Shown here: positions 49,873 to 60,613 of the stretch, piece after piece | Position numbering within the stretch: position 1 is the first letter of the stretch | Layout of the letters: each line of letters starts with the position of its first letter | NCBI GenBank assembly: GCA_947503005.1 | Contig: CANNCA010000003.1 | Coordinates: 124,001 to 188,000, forward strand | DNA: 64,000 nt | Origin: an uncultured Flavobacteriaceae bacterium | Lineage (GTDB): Bacteria; Bacteroidota; Bacteroidia; Flavobacteriales; Flavobacteriaceae | Reading direction: 5' to 3' | Translations under genes and position numbers: made by a program | Notes under the pieces: generated by a model | Database searches by the model: none | What the model was told of the DNA's origin: nothing | Seen by the model: only the letters and a program-made list of their open reading frames with translations

Positions 49873-51216
49873 ATGCCAAAACGCCTGACCACTTATCTGA
49901 AGCTACACAAAGTATCCATATTGTTGGCAATACTAAGTTTGGCCTTCTACTTTACATTCGCCTACCATTTAGAGAGAACCGAGTTTATAAAATTACTCTC
50001 CCTATTTGCAGCACTTTTCTTCTTATGTTTCAAACTCGTTCAATTCGAAAAATACAATTTCAAATTTCTACTTGGTATCGGTATCATTTTTCGCTTGGTA
50101 TTTCTTATTGCAGAACCAAATCTATCCCAAGATTTTTATCGCTTTATTTGGGATGGGGAATTGGTTAGCCATTTTATCAATCCGTATCTGAAAGTGCCTA
50201 ATGCCTTAATCGAGCAAAAAGATTTGGTTGTCGTCAATGCCCGGGAGTTATATGATGGCATGGGAAGTTTAAGCGCAAAACACTTTAGCAATTACCCACC
50301 ATTGAACCAAATCTTTTTTGCGCTAGCAGCTCTTCTTGGCGGAAAAAGCATCCTTGGTTCGATAATTGTCATGCGAAGTACAATAATTCTAGCGGATATC
50401 GGGATTTTCTACTTTGGGAGGAAACTCCTAAAAAATATCAACCAGTCACCACACTTGATATTTTGGTATTTTTTAAATCCTCTTGTTATCGTAGAATTGA
50501 CAGGAAACCTTCATTTTGAAGGCGTCATGCTCTTCTTTTTCGTGTGGTCTCTTTATCTGCTTTCAGTTCACAAATGGCAATGGGCAGCAGTAGTTTATGC
50601 CTGTTCCATTTCGGTAAAACTAGTCCCGCTATTGTTTCTTCCGCTCTTCTTAAAACATTTTAAGTTGAAGAAAAGTATTTTGTTTTATGCTATTATCGGA
50701 CTGACTTCCCTGTTGCTATTCGCTCCTTTTTATTCCACTGAATTTATAAACAACTATTCGAAAACCATCGGACTATGGTTTTCCAACTTCGAGTTCAACG
50801 CGGGGATATATAATGCCGTGAAACAAATTGCAATTCAGTTCGATGCCAAACCTTGGGAATTGATTAAAACGTACGGAAAAATAACTCCGATACTAACAGT
50901 TATTGCAGTTTTGCTTTTTACTTTCCTTAGAAAAAATGAAAAACTATCAGTACTGATTACATCCATGCTCTGGGTATTGACTTTGTATTATTTCATGTCC
51001 GCAACGGTGCATCCTTGGTATATTATCTTTCTAGTGGTTTTGACCGCTTTCACTAAATATCGTTATGCATTTATATGGTCTGCAGCCATCGTTCTGAGTT
51101 ATTTTGCCTATTCCTTAGCCGACTTTAAAGAAAACCTATGGTTAGTCGCTATTGAGTATCTCGCAGTTTTCTCTTTCTTAATTTATGAATTGGTGGCATA
51201 TCGTAACAAATCATGA
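49873..51216 (+). CDS. GT-C membrane mannosyltransferase-like protein
   Basis: A 447-residue protein with about ten hydrophobic segments and the GT-C loop SQDFYRFIWDGELV after the second or third helix (near residues 80-95), plus NPYLKVP next to it. It matches the GT87/DUF2029-like family that uses polyprenyl-phosphate mannose as donor. The preceding 270 bases show no gene. The DPM1-like enzyme at 44124 may supply its donor. It ends in the region just before the arginine leader. Confidence 0.82.
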   Translation: MPKRLTTYLKLHKVSILLAILSLAFYFTFAYHLERTEFIKLLSLFAALFFLCFKLVQFEKYNFKFLLGIGIIFRLVFLIAEPNLSQDFYRFIWDGELVSHFINPYLKVPNALIEQKDLVVVNARELYDGMGSLSAKHFSNYPPLNQIFFALAALLGGKSILGSIIVMRSTIILADIGIFYFGRKLLKNINQSPHLIFWYFLNPLVIVELTGNLHFEGVMLFFFVWSLYLLSVHKWQWAAVVYACSISVKLVPLLFLPLFLKHFKLKKSILFYAIIGLTSLLLFAPFYSTEFINNYSKTIGLWFSNFEFNAGIYNAVKQIAIQFDAKPWELIKTYGKITPILTVIAVLLFTFLRKNEKLSVLITSMLWVLTLYYFMSATVHPWYIIFLVVLTAFTKYRYAFIWSAAIVLSYFAYSLADFKENLWLVAIEYLAVFSFLIYELVAYRNKS

Positions 51217-51280
51217 AGTTTTTGTAAAAAATATCATCTGGATTAGGTGAATTAAAGATAATTTGTACATTTACTCCGTA

Positions 51281-51364
51281 ATGAACGCACAAAACAATAT
51301 ATTTTCTACCATGAGCATCACTGCTCCCGTACGTCCGTTCGCGCCCCGTCGCCGTCGCCCGTAA
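51281..51364 (+). CDS. Arginine-rich leader peptide (candidate arg operon attenuator)
   Basis: A 27-codon ORF, too short for ordinary gene calls, with ATG at 51281 and TAA at 51362. The peptide starts MNAQNNIF and ends RPFAPRRRRP. It has five Arg codons (Arg18, then Arg23-26 read CGT, CGC, CGT, CGC), four of them consecutive just before the stop. It begins 172 bases before the first gene of a complete arginine operon. Such a run of the end-product amino acid is the hallmark of leader peptides that control their operon by ribosome stalling. Start and amino acid content are directly seen; the regulatory role is inference. Confidence 0.8.
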   Translation: MNAQNNIFSTMSITAPVRPFAPRRRRP

Positions 51365-51440
51365 GGGTACGATACATTTCATGGAACTAGGTGAGTCCAG
51401 TTCCGCACAACCACATCACATTTTTATTTTCATCTTTTAA
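51326..51440 (+). promoter_or_regulatory. Candidate attenuator structures downstream of and within the leader ORF
   Basis: CCCGTACG (51326-51333) can pair with CGTAAGGG (51360-51367) with one mismatch; the Arg run lies in the loop and the stop codon in the 3' arm. A second hairpin GGAACT / AGTTCC lies at 51383-51404 with a 10-base loop, followed from 51421 by ATTTTTATTTTCATCTTTT. A ribosome waiting on the Arg codons would keep the first hairpin open. Which structure terminates is not decidable by eye. Confidence 0.5.
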
Positions 51441-51452
51441 TTAATCATAGCA

Positions 51453-52070
51453 ATGAACATTATTGTTGCTAACACATCACATTTTAAGTACGCGCAAATC
51501 ATTTGTGACACCATAGCTGACTCTGCCAAGGTTAGAGGAACGGGTATCGCCAAGCGTACGCCTGAGTATATTCGAAAGAAGCTAGAAAACGGTAACGCTG
51601 TAATCGCTTTGGATGATGATATTTTCGCTGGTTTCTGCTACATCGAAATTTGGGGACATGAAAAGTATGTTGCTAACTCGGGATTAATTGTCCACCCCGA
51701 TTACAGGGGAAAAGGGTTGGCCAAACAAATCAAGGCAAGTATTTTTAAATTGTCACAAGAGAAATTTCCCGATGCTAAAATATTTGGTATTACTACAGGT
51801 CTTCCAGTGATGAAAATCAACTACGAACTAGGGTACAAACCTGTAACATTCTCTGAACTTACAGACGATCCTGAATTCTGGAAAGGGTGTCAAACTTGTA
51901 AAAACTTTGATGTCTTGACGAGAACAGATCAAAAAATGTGCCTGTGTACGGGCATGTTATACGATCCAACATCAAAATCAAAGGAGAAAGAAAAGAAGGT
52001 GAATAGTAGAGCATTTAAAAGATTGAAAAGCATTAAGGAGAGTTTGTTTTTGAAGAAGAAAACGAAATAA
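51453..52070 (+). CDS. GNAT-family acyltransferase, candidate N-acylglutamate synthase
   Basis: A 205-residue GNAT enzyme, first gene of the arginine operon. The acetyl-CoA fold shows the signature region SGLIVHPDYRGKGLAKQIK near residues 70-90 and a C-terminal basic Lys-rich tail. The operon has no argA, argJ or other first-step enzyme, so this protein is the best candidate to acylate glutamate with acetyl- or succinyl-CoA. It has a cysteine pair CQTCKNF and CLCTG near 145-165, unusual for the family. Function rests on context. Confidence 0.7.
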   Translation: MNIIVANTSHFKYAQIICDTIADSAKVRGTGIAKRTPEYIRKKLENGNAVIALDDDIFAGFCYIEIWGHEKYVANSGLIVHPDYRGKGLAKQIKASIFKLSQEKFPDAKIFGITTGLPVMKINYELGYKPVTFSELTDDPEFWKGCQTCKNFDVLTRTDQKMCLCTGMLYDPTSKSKEKEKKVNSRAFKRLKSIKESLFLKKKTK

Positions 52071-52074
52071 GACC

Positions 52075-52094
52075 TCCCTCCAAACAAGGAGGGA
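52075..52094. repeat. CCTCC/GGAGG hairpin in the GNAT-argG gap
   Basis: TCCCTCC (52075-52081) pairs with GGAGGGA (52088-52094) around a 6-base loop; a second GAGAGG follows. No T run. It looks like an intergenic repeat element rather than a terminator. Confidence 0.5.
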
Positions 52095-52148
52095 TTGAGA
52101 GAGGTGTAAAACAGATTTTCCTCTTCAGGGAAATGAAAATAAAATATT

Positions 52149-53330
52149 ATGAAGTTAGTTTTAGCATATAGTGGCGGGTTAGATACATCATACTGCGCCA
52201 AATACTTATCCAAAGAAAAAGGGTACGAGGTGCATGCAGTCAGTGTAAATACAGGAGGCTTCTCAGCCGAAGAAATTAAAAACATAGAGGACAAGGCATT
52301 GCAATTGGGAGCTACCTCCTATACCTCAATCGATGCCGTTCAAACTTTTTACAATAAAGTAGTAAAGTATCTAATCTTCGGGAATGTCCTAAAAAACAAT
52401 ACGTATCCATTATCCGTAAGTGCTGAACGAATTGTTCAAGCCATTGAAATCGTCAATTACGCTAAGAAAGTAGGTGCTCAATATATCGCACATGGCAGCA
52501 CAGGCGCTGGAAACGACCAGGTACGGTTTGATATGATTTTTCAGATTATTGCTCCTGAAATTGAAATCATCACTCCAATACGAGACAATAGACTATCAAG
52601 AGAGACGGAAATAGAATACCTTAAAGCAAACGGGGTCGACTATCCTTGGGAAAAAGCAAAATACTCTATTAACCGGGGACTTTGGGGAACCTCAGTTGGT
52701 GGCGAAGAAACATTGACGTCAGAAAAACCGCTTCCAGATTCGGCATACCCAAGTCAGTTACAGGAAAAGAATCCGTCCGAAGTAAAACTCACATTTGAAA
52801 AAGGCGAGTTAGTAGCAATTAATGGCGTAAAAGAAAATCCCGTCGCTAATATCGAGAAGCTTGAGGCTATGGCTTCTAAATATGCCATTGGGCGAGATAT
52901 TCATGTGGGCGATACTATTATCGGTATTAAAGGACGGGTAGGTTTTGAAGCTCCTGCCTCTCTAATAATTATAAAGGCGCATCATTTGTTGGAGAAACAT
53001 ACGCTTACCAAATGGCAGCAATATCAAAAAGAACAACAGGGTAATTTCTACGGAATGTTATTGCACGAAGGCAACTATCTCGATGCAGTGATGCGGAATA
53101 TTGAAGCCTTCCTGACCGACACTCAAAAGACCGTTTCAGGAGATGTGTTCGTGGGCTTGTATCCATTTCAATTCAGATTGAACGGAATCTCCTCCAAGCA
53201 CGATTTGATGAACGCCTCTTTCGGAAGCTACGGGGAAATGAACAAAGGTTGGTCTGCGGATGAAGCTAAAGGGTTTATTAAAATATTAGCTAATTCAGGG
53301 AAGATTTATAATCACGTAAATAAAGAATAA
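52149..53330 (+). CDS. argG: Argininosuccinate synthase
   Basis: A 393-residue ATP-dependent ligase that joins citrulline and aspartate. Motifs: the ATP P-loop LAYSGGLDTSY at residues 4-14, STGAGNDQVRFD near 117 and INRGLWG near 176. The length is that of the normal family. It is second in the operon, separated from the GNAT gene by 78 bases holding a hairpin and from argC by 86 bases holding a repeat. Confidence 0.95.
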   Translation: MKLVLAYSGGLDTSYCAKYLSKEKGYEVHAVSVNTGGFSAEEIKNIEDKALQLGATSYTSIDAVQTFYNKVVKYLIFGNVLKNNTYPLSVSAERIVQAIEIVNYAKKVGAQYIAHGSTGAGNDQVRFDMIFQIIAPEIEIITPIRDNRLSRETEIEYLKANGVDYPWEKAKYSINRGLWGTSVGGEETLTSEKPLPDSAYPSQLQEKNPSEVKLTFEKGELVAINGVKENPVANIEKLEAMASKYAIGRDIHVGDTIIGIKGRVGFEAPASLIIIKAHHLLEKHTLTKWQQYQKEQQGNFYGMLLHEGNYLDAVMRNIEAFLTDTQKTVSGDVFVGLYPFQFRLNGISSKHDLMNASFGSYGEMNKGWSADEAKGFIKILANSGKIYNHVNKE

Positions 53331-53337
53331 AATGAAT

Positions 53338-53399
53338 GTTCAGTCAGGTCGAGTGCAGTCGAGACCTAATCTAACAGATTCCCGCCTTCTCGGGAATGA
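53338..53399. repeat. Flavobacterial intergenic repeat in the argG-argC gap
   Basis: GTCAGGTCGAGTGCAGTCGAGACC is followed by a 7-bp hairpin ATTCCCG / CGGGAAT (53378-53397, loop CCTTCT) and GA. It is the same two-part unit as at 41838 and 59211. Confidence 0.65.
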
Positions 53400-53416
53400 A
53401 AAAACAAACCTAAGTA

Positions 53417-54391
53417 ATGATTAAAGCAGGCATAATAGGCGGTTCAGGATACACAGGTGGAGAATTGATTCGAATCCTATTGAATCATTCCCAGACAGAA
53501 ATAGATTTTGTGTTCAGTACAACACGAGCAGGAAAGGCGGTTTCATCAACGCATTCAGATTTGTTGGGCACAACCGATTTAAATTTTACGGGAACTATAA
53601 ATTCAAACGTAGATGTGGTTTTTCTGTGTCTAGGACATGGAAATTCTACGAAATTCCTAAATGAAAATCAGTTTTCGGATGGGACAAAAATCATCGATTT
53701 AAGTAACGATTTTAGGCTGCAGGCAGACTCCAATCTTAATGGAAAACATTTTGTTTATGGATTACCAGAACTGAATAAAACAGAAATCAAGAAAGCAAAT
53801 TATATAGCGAATCCAGGATGTTTTGCAACTGCAATTCAATTGGCATTACTTCCATTGGCGAAAGCTGGATTATTGGGTAATGATATACATGTTAACGCCG
53901 TCACCGGAAGTACTGGTGCAGGCGTGAGTCCATCTGGAACAACGCATTTCAGTTGGCGAAACAACAATGTGAGTTGGTACAAGCCTTTTACGCACCAACA
54001 TTTGGGTGAAATTAACGAGAGTTTAAAATCCTTACAAAAAAATACAAGTGAGTTATTTTTTCTTCCCACCCGAGGAAATTTCACTAGAGGAATATTAGCA
54101 ACCGCCTATACCCAATTCAAGGGACGAGAAACAGAAGCAATTCAATTGTACAAAGAATTTTATACAGACGCTGAATTCACACAAATCGCGGCTGAACCCA
54201 TCCATCTAAAACAGGTGGTGAACACGAATCAATGTCATATTCACTTGTATAAACATGAAGACACCATACTTATTACATCGGCCATTGATAACTTATTAAA
54301 AGGAGCATCAGGACAAGCCGTTCAGAATATGAATTTAATGTTCGGGTTTGAGGAAAGTGAAGCATTGAAATTAAAGGCGGGAGTATTCTAA
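53417..54391 (+). CDS. argC: N-acyl-gamma-glutamyl-phosphate reductase
   Basis: A 324-residue NADPH-dependent dehydrogenase of the arginine pathway, giving acylglutamate semialdehyde. The Rossmann motif GGSGYTGGELIR is at residues 8-19 and the catalytic Cys is Cys135 in NPGCFAT. Also visible is TGSTGAGVSPSG near 164. Length is as expected. It precedes proC with a 92-base gap that holds a short direct repeat. Confidence 0.95.
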   Translation: MIKAGIIGGSGYTGGELIRILLNHSQTEIDFVFSTTRAGKAVSSTHSDLLGTTDLNFTGTINSNVDVVFLCLGHGNSTKFLNENQFSDGTKIIDLSNDFRLQADSNLNGKHFVYGLPELNKTEIKKANYIANPGCFATAIQLALLPLAKAGLLGNDIHVNAVTGSTGAGVSPSGTTHFSWRNNNVSWYKPFTHQHLGEINESLKSLQKNTSELFFLPTRGNFTRGILATAYTQFKGRETEAIQLYKEFYTDAEFTQIAAEPIHLKQVVNTNQCHIHLYKHEDTILITSAIDNLLKGASGQAVQNMNLMFGFEESEALKLKAGVF

Positions 54392-54443
54392 AGTAGGAAA
54401 TACAAAGTTAGAGAAACTAAGTAAAATTGAATATTATAAGCAA

Positions 54444-54469
54444 GCGTATAGCGAAGGGCGTTTAGCGAA
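54444..54469 (+). repeat. Short tandem repeat before proC
   Basis: GCGTATAGCGAA (54444-54455) and GCGTTTAGCGAA (54458-54469) are near-identical 12-mers in the argC-proC gap, differing in one base. Confidence 0.5.
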
Positions 54470-54483
54470 AAGCATATAAAATC

Positions 54484-55278
54484 ATGAAAATAGCCATCAT
54501 AGGAACAGGAAACCTAGGTCTCTCCATTGCAAAGGGCGTGCTACATAGTAACGGGGCCACTAGCATGTATATGACCAAAAGAAACATCGAGTCGATCAAA
54601 GACTTTGAAAGCTACGGAAATGTAATGGTCACTACCGACAACAGAGAAGCAGTACAACAATCCGACATCCTGATTTTTGCAGTGCAACCAGGGCATTTTG
54701 CTCAGATTTTGGAAGACATCAAGGATCTATTGACTGAAAAGCACGTGGTCATTTCCACAATTACGGGGTTCAGCATTGCAAAAATTGAGAGCATTATCGG
54801 TAAAGACAATTACATCGTTCGAAGTATGCCCAATACGGCGATTTCCGTGGGCAAATCAATGACCTGTATCTGTGCCAATGAAATGGGTAAAAAACGTATC
54901 GATTTGGCAAAGGCCATATTCAATCGAATGGGGCATTCCTTGGAAATTCCTGAAGAGCAAATGCAGGCGGCAACGGTCATCTGCGCGAGCGGAATTGCCT
55001 TTTGGATGCGATTGATCCGTGCTACCACACAAGGAGCCATTCAGCTTGGCTTTGATGCCAAGGAAGCACAAGAATTGGCTATGTACACTTGTGAAGGAGC
55101 AGCTAATCTATTAGTTGAATCTGGCAATCACCCAGAAGAAGAAATTGACAGGGTTACCACACCTATGGGCTGCACCATTCAGGGCCTCAATGAAATGGAA
55201 CATCAAGGTTTGAGTTCCTCTTTGATTCGAGGAATCGTGGCATCATTTGATAAAATAACAGAGTTTAAAACAAAGTAG
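54484..55278 (+). CDS. proC: Pyrroline-5-carboxylate reductase
   Basis: A 264-residue reductase making proline from pyrroline-5-carboxylate. Motifs: Rossmann GTGNLGLSIAKG at residues 7-18, VRSMPNTAISVGKS near 113, and the C-terminal block TTPMGCTIQGLNEM near 228. It lies inside the arginine operon, eight bases before argD. It probably links glutamate semialdehyde pools of the two pathways; whether it takes another substrate is not known. Confidence 0.93.
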   Translation: MKIAIIGTGNLGLSIAKGVLHSNGATSMYMTKRNIESIKDFESYGNVMVTTDNREAVQQSDILIFAVQPGHFAQILEDIKDLLTEKHVVISTITGFSIAKIESIIGKDNYIVRSMPNTAISVGKSMTCICANEMGKKRIDLAKAIFNRMGHSLEIPEEQMQAATVICASGIAFWMRLIRATTQGAIQLGFDAKEAQELAMYTCEGAANLLVESGNHPEEEIDRVTTPMGCTIQGLNEMEHQGLSSSLIRGIVASFDKITEFKTK

Positions 55279-55285
55279 AGCAGTT

Positions 55286-56416
55286 ATGAATTTATTTGAT
55301 GTGTATCCACTTTATGATGTGACTCCAGTTTCCGCTCAGGGTATCGTAGTAACTGATGATAAAGGCCAAGAATACCTCGACTTCTACGGAGGGCATGCCG
55401 TAATTTCTATAGGACATTCACATCCTCATTATGTAAAATGCTTGAAAGACCAATTGGATAAAATCGGGTTTTATAGCAATGCCGTTCAGAATCCGTTGCA
55501 AAAGGAATTAGCGACTAAACTTGGAAAGTTATCCAATTGTGAAAACTATAATTTATTCCTATGTAATTCAGGTGCCGAAGCCAATGAAAATGCTTTGAAA
55601 ATGGCTTCTTTTCAGACAGGAAAGTCACGAATTATTGCCTTCAAAAATGGCTTTCACGGTAGGACTTCTGCTGCGGTCGCAGCAACGGACAATGAGAAAA
55701 TAAATGCTCCCTTAAACAAGCAACAAAAGGTTACTATTCTACCTTTTAATGACAGCACAGCTTTCAAATCGGAAATAGAAAAAGGAGATGTTTGTAGTGT
55801 GATAATCGAAGCTATTCAAGGTGTTGGCGGACTAGATGAGCCCTCGACAAAATTCTATCAAGAAGTCGCACAACTTTGCCATCTAAATAATGTAGTACTA
55901 ATTGCTGATGAAGTACAATCAGGTTTCGGACGTAGTGGGAAGTTTTTCGGATTTCAACATCACGGCATTGAACCGGATATTATTTCAATAGCAAAAGGCA
56001 TGGGCAACGGATTTCCAGTTGGTGGCATTCTCATCCATGATAACATTAAAGCTTCTTATGGCTTATTAGGTACGACATTTGGAGGCAACCATTTGGCTTG
56101 TGTGGCAACAATGGCTGTGTTAGAGGTCTTAGAAAAAGAAAATCTGGTCGAAAATGCCAAAATGTTGGGGGAATATTTTAAAGAAAAAGCATTAGCAATA
56201 CCGCAGGTAAAAAGAATAAAAGGTCGTGGGCTCATGCTTGGGTTAGAATTCGATTTTGAAGTGGCCGAACTTCGAAAAAAATTGATTTACGAAAATCATT
56301 TATTTACAGGAGGCGCAAAAGATAAACACGTCTTGCGGATTTTACCTGCACTGAATATTGCCAAAGAACATTTAGATGTATTTTTTAAAAAGTTGAAAAT
56401 CGCATTAGACCAATAG
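55286..56416 (+). CDS. argD: Acylornithine aminotransferase
   Basis: A 376-residue PLP-dependent class III aminotransferase, converting acylglutamate semialdehyde into acylornithine. The PLP lysine is Lys237 in ISIAKGMGNGFPVGG. Other motifs: CNSGAEANENALK near 93 and ADEVQSGFGRSG near 207. Length matches ArgD. It follows proC by 7 bases and precedes argF' by 8. Confidence 0.95.
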   Translation: MNLFDVYPLYDVTPVSAQGIVVTDDKGQEYLDFYGGHAVISIGHSHPHYVKCLKDQLDKIGFYSNAVQNPLQKELATKLGKLSNCENYNLFLCNSGAEANENALKMASFQTGKSRIIAFKNGFHGRTSAAVAATDNEKINAPLNKQQKVTILPFNDSTAFKSEIEKGDVCSVIIEAIQGVGGLDEPSTKFYQEVAQLCHLNNVVLIADEVQSGFGRSGKFFGFQHHGIEPDIISIAKGMGNGFPVGGILIHDNIKASYGLLGTTFGGNHLACVATMAVLEVLEKENLVENAKMLGEYFKEKALAIPQVKRIKGRGLMLGLEFDFEVAELRKKLIYENHLFTGGAKDKHVLRILPALNIAKEHLDVFFKKLKIALDQ

Positions 56417-56424
56417 TAGATAAA

Positions 56425-57360
56425 ATGAAACACTACCTATCCATAAAAGATATCGACTCCTTGCCAGATTGGGTTTCGGAAGCTCGAAAGTTAAAGGCAA
56501 ATCCGACCTCTAATAAAAGTTTGGGGGAAGGAAAAACCATTTGTTTACTCTTCTTCAACAATAGCCTAAGAACACGTCTCAGCACTCAAAAGGCGGCATT
56601 GAATTTAGGCATGGAGGTAATGGTGATGAATTTTGGAAGCGAAGGTTGGCAATTAGAATTCGAGGATGGCGTTGTCATGGACCAAGGAAAATCAGAACAT
56701 ATTAAAGAAGCTGCACAGGTAGTTTCTCAATATTGTGATATAGTTGCTATTCGCGCTTTCGCATCCCTAACGGATAAAAATAAGGACGAGGCAGAATTGG
56801 TTTTGAACGGATTTGTAAAACATGCTTCCATTCCTGTCGTCAATATGGAAAGTTCTATCGGGCATCCTTTACAGGCTTTGGCAGACGCAATAACGTTGAC
56901 AGAAAATAATGTCGGAACTCGACCCAAAGTGGTATTATCTTGGGCGCCACATCCAAAGGCATTGCCACATGCTGTTGCGAACTCATTTGTTGAAATGATG
57001 CGATTACAAGATGCAGAGTTTGTGATTACACATCCTGAGGGTTATGAACTGAATAAGGAAATAACTAAAGATGTTCTCATCGAATATGACCAAAAGAAAG
57101 CATGTGAAAATGCGGACTTCATCTACGTCAAGAACTGGAGCAGTTATACCGACTACGGAAAAGTTCTAAGCCAAGATTCGGATTGGATGATGACTTATGA
57201 AAAATTGGGCAAAGCAAAGTTTATGCATTGCTTACCAGTTCGAAGAAATGTGGTAGTAGAAGATGCTGTTTTAGATGCAACGCAATCGTTAGTCATTGAG
57301 CAGGCGAATAACCGGACTTTTGCTGCTCAGGTTGTTTTGAAAAAGATATTGGAGTCATGA
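56425..57360 (+). CDS. argF': N-acyl-L-ornithine carbamoyltransferase (succinyl/acetyl type)
   Basis: A 311-residue carbamoyltransferase of the special Bacteroidota class that carbamoylates N-succinyl- or N-acetylornithine rather than free ornithine. The carbamoyl-phosphate motif is SLRTR at residues 47-51. The later HCLPVRRN block is conserved. The residue that in the Bacteroides fragilis succinyl enzyme is Pro90 is Ser90 here (GKSEH), so substrate choice cannot be assigned. It overlaps argB by 4 bases (ATGA). Confidence 0.92.
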   Translation: MKHYLSIKDIDSLPDWVSEARKLKANPTSNKSLGEGKTICLLFFNNSLRTRLSTQKAALNLGMEVMVMNFGSEGWQLEFEDGVVMDQGKSEHIKEAAQVVSQYCDIVAIRAFASLTDKNKDEAELVLNGFVKHASIPVVNMESSIGHPLQALADAITLTENNVGTRPKVVLSWAPHPKALPHAVANSFVEMMRLQDAEFVITHPEGYELNKEITKDVLIEYDQKKACENADFIYVKNWSSYTDYGKVLSQDSDWMMTYEKLGKAKFMHCLPVRRNVVVEDAVLDATQSLVIEQANNRTFAAQVVLKKILES

Positions 57361-58136
57361 GACAAAAATTATCAATAGTAAAAATCGGCGGAAACGTCAT
57401 TGAAAACAAAACGGAGCTTTCCAAATTCTTAAAGCTTTTTGCCTGCCTTGACGGACTTAAAATATTAGTCCATGGTGGTGGCAAATTAGCAACGCAATTA
57501 GCAACTAAACTCGGTATCGAATCAAAAATGATCGGTGGTAGACGAATAACCAATGCAGAAACGCTTGAAGTAATTACTATGGTGTATGCGGGATTGTCCA
57601 ACAAAAACATTATTGCCGAATTACAAGCAAATAACTGTAATGCAATAGGCCTGAGTGGAGCTGATGGAGATGCGATTCAGGCTCACAAACGACCCGTAAA
57701 AGAAATCGATTATGGTTTTGTTGGAGATGTTGATGGAGTGAATAGCCAAATGATTACTATATTACTGGAAGCAGATTTGACACCAGTTTTTTGTGCCTTG
57801 ACCCACGATGGTAACGGACAATTATTGAACACCAATGCAGATACTATTGCTTCCGAATTGGCAATAGGCATGAGTGAACTTTATGACACCACGCTTTATT
57901 ACTGTTTCGAAAAGAAAGGGGTTTTGAAAGATATCAAAAATGAAGATTCCGTTGTAAAATATATCGATTCACAAACCTATCAACAACTTCTCGCTGATGG
58001 AATTATTGCTGACGGAATGCTTCCAAAACTCGAAAATTGTTTTCATGCCCTGAACAAAAAAGTGAGTAAAGTTTGTATAGGCCATCCTTCCATGCTGAAC
58101 TCAGAAAATGAACTTTTTACAACGATTACCCTTTAA
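57357..58136 (+). CDS. argB: N-acylglutamate kinase
   Basis: A 259-residue amino acid kinase phosphorylating acylglutamate. Motifs: VKIGGNVIE at residues 7-15 (Lys8), LVHGGGK near 35-41, GRR near 59, and NTNADTIASELA near 158. The start overlaps argF' by 4 bases and argE follows after 1 base. Confidence 0.94.
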   Translation: MRQKLSIVKIGGNVIENKTELSKFLKLFACLDGLKILVHGGGKLATQLATKLGIESKMIGGRRITNAETLEVITMVYAGLSNKNIIAELQANNCNAIGLSGADGDAIQAHKRPVKEIDYGFVGDVDGVNSQMITILLEADLTPVFCALTHDGNGQLLNTNADTIASELAIGMSELYDTTLYYCFEKKGVLKDIKNEDSVVKYIDSQTYQQLLADGIIADGMLPKLENCFHALNKKVSKVCIGHPSMLNSENELFTTITL

Positions 58137-58137
58137 G

Positions 58138-59208
58138 ATGACACAAACACAACTTACTGATAAGGCTTTGGATTTATTAAAACATTTGATTTCAATTCAA
58201 TCCTATTCATCCGAAGAGGATAAAACCGCTGATGCTATTCAGAATTGGTTCCAAGAATTCGATATTCCATTTGAACGCATACATAACAATGTGTTTGCAA
58301 AGAACAAATTCTGGGATGATAGTAAACCCACCCTCCTTCTAAATTCACATCACGATACCGTAAAACCCAATCAAGCGTATACCAAAGATCCTTTTCATCC
58401 GCACGTAGAAGAAGGCAAATTGTACGGTTTAGGAAGCAATGACGCAGGGGGTTGCTTGGTTTCACTCTTGGCCACTTTCGTTCATTTTTACAATGCTGAC
58501 AATCTCAACCATAATATCTTGATGGTAGCTTCGATGGAAGAAGAAAGTGCAGGCGAAAATAGCCTGAGAGGATTACTTCCAAGTCTTCCTGAAATTGATG
58601 TGGCCATCGTTGGAGAACCTACTTTGATGGATTTGGCCATTGCAGAAAAGGGATTGATCGTATTTGATGCCGTTGTAAAAGGAACTCCCTCACATGCTGC
58701 TCATCCGAACGATAATAATTCCATTTATAATACGATTGAAGTATTGGAGTGGTTCAAGAATTACAAATTCGAAAAATCTTCTGAAGCCTTGGGCGATGTA
58801 AAAATGACTGTAACACAAATCAATGCCGGAAGTCAGCATAATGTAGTTCCATCACAAGTAGAATTGGTCATTGATGTACGAGTGAACGATGCATATACCA
58901 ACCAAGAAATTGCGGATTTATTAAAATCGGAGGCTCCTTGTGAATTGCAGGAACGTGGACTCAAACTCAACTCGTCAAAAATAGATAAAAATCACCCTTT
59001 GGTACAATCAGGCATTGCTTTAGGAAGAAAAACGTACGGTTCCCCTACCCTATCCGACCAAGCCGCATTGACCTGTCAGTCCTTAAAACTAGGACCAGGA
59101 GATAGTACCCGTTCCCACTCTGCAGATGAGTATATTTACGTGCATGAAATAGAAGAGGGGGTTGATTTGTATATTAAAATATTGGAAGGATTTTTAAAAC
59201 AAACCTGA
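58138..59208 (+). CDS. argE: Acylornithine (acylcitrulline) deacylase, M20 family
   Basis: A 356-residue zinc peptidase of the M20 family. The ATG at 58138 lies one base after the argB stop; an upstream in-frame start would overlap argB by ten codons. Metal motifs visible: NSHHDTV (His/Asp, near residue 73), GSNDAGG near 101, EEES near 136 and GEP near 160. It removes the acyl group from ornithine or citrulline, which fits a linear pathway without ArgJ. A 127-base gap with a repeat follows. Confidence 0.92.
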   Translation: MTQTQLTDKALDLLKHLISIQSYSSEEDKTADAIQNWFQEFDIPFERIHNNVFAKNKFWDDSKPTLLLNSHHDTVKPNQAYTKDPFHPHVEEGKLYGLGSNDAGGCLVSLLATFVHFYNADNLNHNILMVASMEEESAGENSLRGLLPSLPEIDVAIVGEPTLMDLAIAEKGLIVFDAVVKGTPSHAAHPNDNNSIYNTIEVLEWFKNYKFEKSSEALGDVKMTVTQINAGSQHNVVPSQVELVIDVRVNDAYTNQEIADLLKSEAPCELQERGLKLNSSKIDKNHPLVQSGIALGRKTYGSPTLSDQAALTCQSLKLGPGDSTRSHSADEYIYVHEIEEGVDLYIKILEGFLKQT

Positions 59209-59210
59209 TG

Positions 59211-59318
59211 TCACCTCGAGCGGAGTTGATATGTATTTTTCAAACCAACTAGTTCAAAACTCTGCTTCAACTGACATACTTATAAAAATGAAAAAATTCC
59301 GGCCTTCTCCGGAATGAC
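59211..59318. repeat. Flavobacterial intergenic repeat in the argE-argH gap
   Basis: An inverted pair (TCACCTCGAGCGGAGTTGA and, later, TCTGCTTCAACTGACAT) is followed by a 7-bp hairpin ATTCCGG / CCGGAAT (59296-59315, loop CCTTCT) and GACA. It combines both halves seen in the other copies. Confidence 0.65.
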
Positions 59319-59335
59319 ATAAAAGAACATGATTT

Positions 59336-60613
59336 ATGAAACTCTGGGACAAAGGCTTTAGCACTGATAAAAAAATAGATCATTTTACCGTAGGTAACGA
59401 CCGTGAACTTGACCTAAACTTGGCAAAGTATGATGTAATCGCCTCAAAAGCTCACGCCAAAATGTTGGGTAATATCGGATTGTTAACTAAAGATGAAACG
59501 ATGGCCTTAGTGAAGGAATTAGACCAGATTGCTAATAAAATCGAAGATGGCACGTTTACAATCGAGGATAATTTTGAGGATATGCACTCTAAAATCGAGT
59601 TTCAGCTGACCTTGGCTTTGGGAGATACTGGAAAGAAAATACATACAGCACGTTCTCGAAACGACCAAGTTCTGGTGGCTATGCATCTGTATCTAAAAGA
59701 TGAACTCGAAGAAATCAAAACACAAACCAAAACCTTGTTCGACCTTTTATTGAACCTGGCCGATAAATATAAACGAGTCCTCTTACCTGGATATACGCAC
59801 TTGCAAATTGCCATGCCCTCATCATTTGGATTGTGGTTTTCAGCATACGCGGAAAGTTTAATCGACGATTTGTATTTTATAAACGCAGCTTACAAAGTAG
59901 CGGACCAAAACCCTCTAGGAAGTGCCGCTGGCTATGGAAGCTCCTTTCCAATTGATAGAACTTTTACGACCAAAGAAATGGGTTTTGAAACCCTGAAGTA
60001 CAACGTAGTAGCTGCTCAAATGGGGCGCGGAAAGGTGGAAAAAGCCACCGCTTTCGGAATGTCTTCGATTGCCGCAACCCTATCAAAAATGGCAATGGAT
60101 ATCTGTTTGTACATGAGTCAAAATTTTGATTTCATCTCTTTCCCCGATGAGTTGACAACGGGTTCTAGTATCATGCCACATAAAAAAAATCCCGATGTTT
60201 TTGAATTGATTCGAGCAAAATGTAACAAGTTACAAGCGGTACCGAATCAATTGACCTTGATAATAAATAATCTGCCCAGCGGTTACCATAGAGATTTACA
60301 GTTGGTGAAGGAAATTATTGTGCCGGCGATTCAAGACATGAAAGCCTGTTTGGAGATTCTAACGTTCAGCTTAAAAGAAATCCGCATCAATGAGAATATT
60401 CTGGACGATCCAAAATACGATTATTTGTTCAGCGTAGACACCTTGAATGAATTAGTTCAAAACGGAATGCCTTTCCGTGATGCGTATAAACAAATGGGGC
60501 AAGAAATTCAAGCAAGTACTTTTACACCAAAACGAAATATCAAACATACCCATGAAGGTAGCTTAGGCAATTTGTGTTTGGCTGAGATTCGAAAAAAAAT
60601 GAACGACCATTGA
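59336..60613 (+). CDS. argH: Argininosuccinate lyase
   Basis: A 425-residue lyase splitting argininosuccinate into arginine and fumarate, the last step. Motifs: HTARSRNDQV near residue 102, PGYTHLQIAMP near 150 and the signature GSSIMPHKKNPD near 277, whose Ser is catalytic. Length is slightly short of the usual 450-460 but both ends are intact. It is the last gene of the operon. Confidence 0.95.
   Translation: MKLWDKGFSTDKKIDHFTVGNDRELDLNLAKYDVIASKAHAKMLGNIGLLTKDETMALVKELDQIANKIEDGTFTIEDNFEDMHSKIEFQLTLALGDTGKKIHTARSRNDQVLVAMHLYLKDELEEIKTQTKTLFDLLLNLADKYKRVLLPGYTHLQIAMPSSFGLWFSAYAESLIDDLYFINAAYKVADQNPLGSAAGYGSSFPIDRTFTTKEMGFETLKYNVVAAQMGRGKVEKATAFGMSSIAATLSKMAMDICLYMSQNFDFISFPDELTTGSSIMPHKKNPDVFELIRAKCNKLQAVPNQLTLIINNLPSGYHRDLQLVKEIIVPAIQDMKACLEILTFSLKEIRINENILDDPKYDYLFSVDTLNELVQNGMPFRDAYKQMGQEIQASTFTPKRNIKHTHEGSLGNLCLAEIRKKMNDH

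Follow-up and report, generated by a model that had tools for sequence, protein, structure and literature searches.

The arginine biosynthetic operon in the window (the whole stretch of DNA analysed, 64,000 nucleotides from a marine member of the Flavobacteriaceae) is preceded by a tiny conserved ORF, which very probably serves the operon as a built-in gauge of arginine. We propose, with a probability of roughly 0.6, that this arg element attenuates the operon in cis as an arginine leader peptide and that the outcome is read not by an intrinsic terminator but by other means, most likely Rho. The coding nature of the ORF, the conservation of its Arg codons, and the hairpin P2 were supported by the data, and the scans reported below found neither an intrinsic terminator nor ArgR. 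Judged from its sequence, the element combines a short ORF of end-product codons, coding selection on that ORF, and a position ahead of a biosynthetic operon, by which leader attenuators are recognized.

Leader ORF, operon layout, and conservation

The features of the locus, given in window positions, are as follows.

51259..51273, plus strand: putative -7 promoter element(s), TAATTTGT (51259-51266) and/or TACATTTA (51266-51273), from motif scoring
51281..51364, plus strand: arginine leader peptide ORF, MNAQNNIFSTMSITAPVRPFAPRRRRP followed by the stop, from ORF reading, its retention in the best 80 of 534 relatives, and pN/pS
51313..51326, plus strand: P0, hairpin inside the ORF, GAGCA-UCAC-UGCUC, from folding and a synonymous-shuffle test
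51347..51361, plus strand: Arg-Arg-Arg-Arg-Pro codons, CGT CGC CGT CGC CCG
51353..51371, plus strand: P1, hairpin with the last Arg and the Pro codons as 5' arm, the stop in a GUAA loop, and GGGU(ACG) as 3' arm, from RNAalifold
51383..51404, plus strand: P2, hairpin GGAACU-A-GG-UGAGU-CC-AGUUCC, from covariation and the count of loci
51405..51452, plus strand: G-poor tract from P2 to the first structural gene, a candidate Rho loading/elongation region, from base composition
51453..52070, plus strand: GNAT N-acetyltransferase, the first structural gene, from a weak PRK07757 match below the cut-off of that model
52149..60613, plus strand: argG, argC, proC, argD, N-acetylornithine carbamoyltransferase, argB, argE-like deacylase, and argH, from NCBIfam matches

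The ORF comprises 27 codons, five of them for Arg, of which four stand consecutively ahead of Pro-TAA; this matched exactly what the earlier note, made from the DNA letters, had described. Its stop lies 88 nt upstream of the GNAT gene, and the 172 bases that had been counted to the first gene are those from the leader ATG to the GNAT ATG at 51453. NCBIfam matches agreed with the arginine operon claimed downstream, the order being GNAT-argG-argC-proC-argD-argF'-argB-argE-argH, where argF' is the N-acetylornithine carbamoyltransferase; argG, argC, proC, argB, and argH scored over the cut-off, and the best matches of argD, the carbamoyltransferase, and the argE-like gene lay under the curated cut-off. 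At the gathering score, the sole Rfam match in the whole window was a tRNA, and the arg leader matched no Rfam family. By eye, a G/C-rich inverted repeat, CCTCCCTCC ... GGAGGG, was seen at 52070-52110 in the GNAT-argG gap, with no T run after it.

A TTTGTA-ATTT block stood at a near-constant spacing upstream of the leader ATG. Passages of a study on Flavobacterium psychrophilum (PMC9723704) give -7 motifs as TAnnTTTG or TAnnTTGY at -12 to -5. The best -7 score was 5 or 6 of 6 in 81/81 leaders and lay at -15 in 66, against a weak control in which 48/106 other 60-nt stretches (approximately 81 internal to GNAT genes and 25 elsewhere in the genome of the window) also scored at least 5. We infer that the transcript starts approximately 3-10 nt upstream of the leader ATG.

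Public genomes were scanned with the GNAT protein, which gave 534 relatives; the analysis used the best 80 of them, which are the closest loci, so that strong conservation is expected among them. They include Maribacter, Zobellia, Muricauda/Flagellimonas, Arenibacter, and Cellulophaga. Within these best 80 of 534, a simple search recovered an upstream ORF containing three or more Arg at 79 loci, and the leader of the eightieth (L035) ends in YRRP-stop. The Arg-Arg-Pro-stop end was present in 80/80, as was the ORF-end pattern CGNCGCCCGTA[AG]GGG together with the P2 pattern. When the genome of the window was included, the 81 leaders gave 72 distinct peptides, all ending in RRP, and a third Arg was found in 69 of the 72. 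pN/pS was calculated pair by pair within three length groups of the 72 distinct sequences, 5 of the 81 leaders being left out for their rarer lengths; it was 0.56-0.69 in frame and 0.88-1.63 in the other two frames. By segment, the last four codons gave 0.00-0.18, the last ten 0.44-0.49, and the codons ahead of those 0.54-0.99. The check suggested in the earlier note, whether the Arg run is held while the other codons drift, thus gave a positive answer: by this measure, selection is concentrated on the Arg end of the leader and the rest drifts.

Leader Arg codons were CGT or CGC in 338/351 cases, compared with 184/604 over the 5'-terminal 600 bases of the GNAT genes. An aromatic residue is located 7-9 places from the stop in 67/72 peptides, with F encoded by both TTT and TTC; F and P differ at some loci. 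The distance from the leader stop to GNAT took every value from 84 to 93 across 54 loci, i.e., it did not change in multiples of three.

RNA structures, terminators, and ArgR

For the RNA structures, 96 loci (L001-L081, L122-L135, and L142), chosen as element-bearing and anchored by the P1/P2 patterns, were reduced to 54 non-redundant loci, and structural alignments were made of 50 sequences and then of 33 of 81. On these comparative grounds P2 is a supported RNA element, and P1 and P0 are less strongly supported. P2 corresponds to the second hairpin that had been pointed out at 51383-51404, which proved real and conserved. Both-sided changes (A-U/G-C and A-U/C-G) were found at 2/14 model pairs, in 8 cells; the cell count was reached by 0/500 shuffles and the pair count by 215/500. 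The inner GG/CC is replaced by GA/UC in L135 and L142, all six outer pairs are formed without gaps in 39/54 loci, and the loop in the clade reads UGAGU or UGUGU.

The four core pairs of P1 were invariant in the 33 sequences, and covariation is thus silent for P1 in the clade because these pairs never vary. They form in 51/54 loci, a count that is not independent, since the anchoring pattern already demanded CC...GG. By eye, the stem is retained in L129 and L132, where the loops are UUU and UUUU and the reading frame ends elsewhere, and L140 has a compensated stem, CAGGCC-GUAA-GGUCUG. As for P0, the real codons folded better than synonymous shuffles in 37/43 non-redundant leaders (mean z -1.25), although these 43, drawn from the 54 loci, are interrelated and do not amount to 43 independent tests. 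The folding of the whole leader region was not unusual (z -1.11), and P0 was not reported by RNAalifold.

The first hairpin of the earlier note, 51326-51333 with 51360-51367, can indeed pair by eye (7/8), but it is not conserved: all 8 pairs were present in 0/54 non-redundant loci and 7 pairs in 3, and it was rejected as a conserved element. Among pairings that would compete with P1 or P2, the best candidates were CGCC with GGUG and GGGU with GUCC, all among nearly invariant bases, and in the 54 loci none was shown to exclude P1 or P2.

Other roles for P2 were considered and discarded. Pairing of its loop with the 3' end of 16S rRNA, as suggested by eye by the Shine-Dalgarno-like AGGUGA, was dropped in view of L135 and L142, which read GAUG with a compensated stem. 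A T-box-like CGY codon in the loop, also considered by eye, was dropped in view of the UGAGU/UGUGU loops of the clade. P2 is not a genome-wide element either: GGTGAGTCC occurred 25 times exactly in the genome of the window, compared with 16 occurrences of the reversed pattern, and by eye its arg context was unique. The same search revealed, by eye, no second arg-type element in that genome.

A pattern scan found 0 terminator-like sites at 51100-51600 of the window. Ahead of the operons of the best 80 of 534 relatives, with 200 nt scanned, an intrinsic terminator was found at 1/80 arg loci, where it lies within the ORF. The T-rich DNA that had been placed after the second hairpin is present, but it starts approximately 13 nt after the hairpin, and no terminator-like site was found there. 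By comparison, the his leaders of the same genome and its relatives had a His-rich ORF plus a terminator-like site in 16/16 loci (450 nt scanned; 18 of 20 hisG places taken, two short ones set aside). The hisG leader of the genome of the window, MKNKNTHHHLSTGCQAR (L175, G000:C2), is His-rich and is followed by a clean hairpin and a T run, and the same arrangement was found for a Phe-rich pheA leader candidate, MIKQYFFNGYFFYFFKRGEGLL (L176, G000:C6). No Thr leader was evident in two stretches of this genome, viewed cursorily. Leader-type attenuation is likely to be in use in this genome. Since the his and phe leaders have terminators and none was found for the arg leader, the latter represents a different design within one genome. 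The switch of the trp/his type envisaged in the earlier note, with an intrinsic terminator, is therefore not borne out; of the reading given there, the leader peptide for arginine in front of the operon stands, and the first hairpin and the terminator switch fall.

Class-wide, a terminator-like site was located downstream in 5/57 leaders. One of these is in family f5 and probably belongs to no Arg leader; the four Arg leaders outside f5 that have such sites are compatible with attenuation, and two leaders with such sites in family f53 look genuine.

The tract after P2 contained 5.9% G across 54 loci, compared with 13.5% upstream of 32 other ORFs of the window, and C was not enriched (17.5% vs 19.2%). 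The failure to find a terminator, together with the low G content of this tract, makes Rho the favored readout; the tract argues only weakly for a Rho site, since it is G-poor yet not C-rich.

Bacterial arginine operons are textbook cases of ArgR control. The ArgR model TIGR01529 scored over the cut-off in 0/246 genomes of the order, including that of the window; one weak partial match was obtained in another genome of the order and none in that of the window. As a control, the model matched in 9/14 known genomes, 7 of them over the cut-off; these 9 include Escherichia coli and Bacteroides ihuae. The present operon is like ArgR-repressed ones in operon type and presumed signal, and it differs in that ArgR, over the cut-off in none of the 246 genomes, does not offer itself as the usual explanation; a different regulator may act.

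Occurrence in the order and the class

A P1-P2 model, R1, matched 15/246 genomes of the order, from 12 genera that all belong to the family of the window. Each match was at one place per genome, directly upstream of the GNAT match; the GNAT gene itself was matched in 121/246 genomes. Arg-rich leaders ahead of the same gene were also found in other families, beyond the reach of R1. For these, 79 upstream regions from 32 families and 64 genera were hand-picked; they leave out most of genus g2 as well as f16, a family of reduced genomes. An ORF with four or more Arg among its last 12 codons was present in 35/79 of the chosen regions and 17/32 families, compared with 2.4% of dinucleotide shuffles, the last-12-codon criterion having been set after part of the peptides had been viewed. 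The next residue by such pile-up at the leader end was leucine, in 17 regions of the 79. Outside f5, 56 leaders had three or more Arg; their Arg codons were CGC (67), AGG (56), CGA (45), CGT (36), AGA (20), and CGG (3), and because all six kinds occur there, arginine itself appears to be selected. In 20 further loci (7 of family f17, 1 of f81, and 12 of f56), 16 had at least three Arg, compared with approximately 14% of shuffles; f17 and f56 had been sampled earlier too, and one of the 20 had just 100 nt upstream.

The number and spacing of the Arg residues differ widely between families. In family f56, the pattern [VA]R[PA]x[FY]x[IL]RR-stop was found in 11/14 loci fetched, and pN/pS was 0.37 in the last nine codons compared with 0.81 before them, a low value that is partly built in, as the 11 loci were picked by the motif. 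In genus g2, which we take to be Flavobacterium, 18 of the 21 genomes with a GNAT match were viewed; 15/18 had a conserved leader similar to MNKISLHITSLSRTNSPITSPEVRMLSL, in which two to four Arg occur but form no run, L140 had an RRRFRP leader, and L165 and L166 were without an Arg leader. The leader end TCTCCCGARGTACGG is nearly fixed at the DNA level in this genus (L136-L139, L141, L143-L150, L170, and L250), and by eye an apparently covarying hairpin surrounds the leader stop codon. The regions of family f5 viewed had no Arg-run leader. By the criterion, 23/79 chosen regions were without a leader, although by eye an RR end is present in a few (L209, L247).

Tandem arginine leaders were observed in some genera, in which a second, distal Arg-rich ORF, e.g., MHTSNKTNQISLRRRRPMRRS, lies upstream of the proximal one. 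This ORF was seen in L127, L129, L131, L132, L133, and L135, ending 222-282 nt before GNAT, and also in L134 and L142. A palindrome, AGAT-(A/T)3-7-ATCT, was found upstream of GNAT in 4/23 regions without an Arg leader and 0/56 with one (0.24 and 0.53 expected, respectively). The four are L156, L161, L162, and L209, the last of which also has an RR-ending ORF by eye; outside that set it was found in L165, L166, L167, and L169, and it was absent from L154, L155, and L163. These palindromes are possibly operators of some regulator. Finally, UNNGY pentaloop hairpins followed the Arg-leader stop in L140, L151, L159, L160, L201, L203, L206, L211, L216, L219, and L226; they made up 11/47 pentaloop hairpins, compared with 0.74 of 22.9 in shuffles and 2/46 on the reverse strand. 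A universal UNNGY hairpin was rejected, since a second set gave 1/13 (0.08 expected), with none in f17 and f56 there.

Proposed mechanism, rival explanations, and known systems

The sensors of trp and his operons carry a run of codons for one amino acid. Because such runs mark sensors of this kind, sensing through the translation of the Arg codons is favored. Transcription would begin a few bases upstream of the leader ATG, and a ribosome on the 27-codon leader would reach the CGY-CGY-CGY-CGY run, presumably read by one arginine tRNA species, just ahead of Pro-stop. When arginine is ample, the ribosome would reach the stop and depart, P1 would form across the stop, P2 would stand alone, and the downstream RNA would be left unprotected; elongation into the operon would then be cut, most likely by Rho. 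When arginine is scarce, low Arg-tRNA would stall the ribosome, which would linger on the Arg codons, cover the 5' arm of P1, and stay near RNA polymerase, so that the operon would be transcribed.

The main rival is an arrest peptide, in which the nascent chain, together with the ribosome, would sense free arginine (or ornithine) near the stop and would contact the tunnel through its Arg and aromatic residues. Nascent chains sense a ligand together with the ribosome in SpeFL and TnaC of Escherichia coli and in the fungal arginine attenuator peptide. By analogy, the RP-stop end resembles TnaC, and the F held 7-9 places before the stop in 67/72 peptides argues against a pure codon sensor, which would not need this aromatic residue; the VRPxFxIRR-like peptides of family f56, with their low last-nine pN/pS in motif-picked loci, point the same way. 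However, the runs of CGY codons for a single tRNA (338/351) fit codon sensing, F and P are not constant at all loci, and the count and spacing of Arg vary widely among families. We regard an arrest peptide as possible but doubtful.

Somewhat less probable is a wider reading, in which an old, class-wide arginine leader peptide would govern the arg operon in Bacteroidia without ArgR, the nascent chain as well as the codons would sense arginine or ornithine, and the signal would be read through a dedicated hairpin (with a UNNGY pentaloop in several families) and Rho or another factor, not an intrinsic terminator, with tandem leaders in some genera. We offer it as a tentative extension.

P2 might instead be a site for an RNA-binding protein, or, being an inverted repeat, for a DNA-binding one, the leader merely modulating access to it. 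The loop bases UG[A/U]GU are held in the clade and UNNGY pentaloops recur in other families, but the latter were first noticed on some of the same loci and appeared once in the second set of 13, and there is no candidate protein; we consider this unlikely. Translational attenuation, in which the leader RNA structure would hide or free the GNAT start, is very improbable. Although the GNAT start lies within a weak local hairpin at many loci, none of P0, P1, and P2 overlaps it. Sequestration of the start was not borne out, since masking of P1, or of P1 and P2, left its mean accessibility unaffected (0.425, 0.435, and 0.430; 54 loci), with 0.12 as the largest change at a single locus on masking of P1. 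That the ORF codes for a small protein functional in its own right, or arose by chance, is hardly credible, since, although the ORF is conserved, the codons before the last ten drift as the Arg end is held and it stands ahead of the arg operon at the loci viewed.

The preferred reading, an arginine leader-peptide attenuator read out other than by an intrinsic terminator, shares with the trp, his, and phe attenuators a short ORF near the transcript start, with end-product codons, ahead of a biosynthetic operon. It differs from them in having P1 across the stop and P2 with fixed loop bases, with no intrinsic terminator found after the leader. The Rho-dependent tnaC, mgtL, corL, and speFL likewise have a leader ORF without an intrinsic terminator close downstream, and TnaC shares the Pro-stop end; the arg operon, however, is biosynthetic, the role of Rho in it is predicted, and no clear C-rich rut site was found. 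With the fungal arginine attenuator peptide of arg-2/CPA1 it has in common a short peptide ahead of an arginine gene and, as proposed, arginine sensing, though the fungal system is a eukaryotic translational control and the likeness is one of description. The comparative study of attenuation by Lopatovskaya et al. (2010) may mention related cases.

Full-text searches of an open-access library, with subscription papers mostly outside its scope, yielded no description of this arg element. The remark of the earlier note that it knew of no described arginine case in Flavobacteriaceae is thus uncontradicted, with the closest account being that of F. psychrophilum, where passages give strong indications that amino-acid operons are attenuated through leader peptides and describe structured 5' elements ahead of pheA, hisG, and other genes (PMC9723704). 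These structured 5' regions are alike in kind, but the passages do not name arg, and the single mention of arginine in the main text concerns cyanophycin (PMC9723704). Leader-like small ORFs have been reported in Bacteroides thetaiotaomicron, in a main text from which arginine is absent (PMC7366714), and a passage of PMC4833913 cites the 2010 comparative attenuation study of Lopatovskaya et al. Flavobacteria are also described, in passages of PMC9723704, as lacking Shine-Dalgarno sequences.

An order without detected ArgR appears to use a translated leader for its arginine operon, and not the terminator design that the genome of the window has at its his and phe leaders. This makes the coupling of translation and transcription in flavobacteria, without Shine-Dalgarno sequences, a tractable question, and the natural series of leader peptides could separate codon sensing from peptide sensing of one amino acid.
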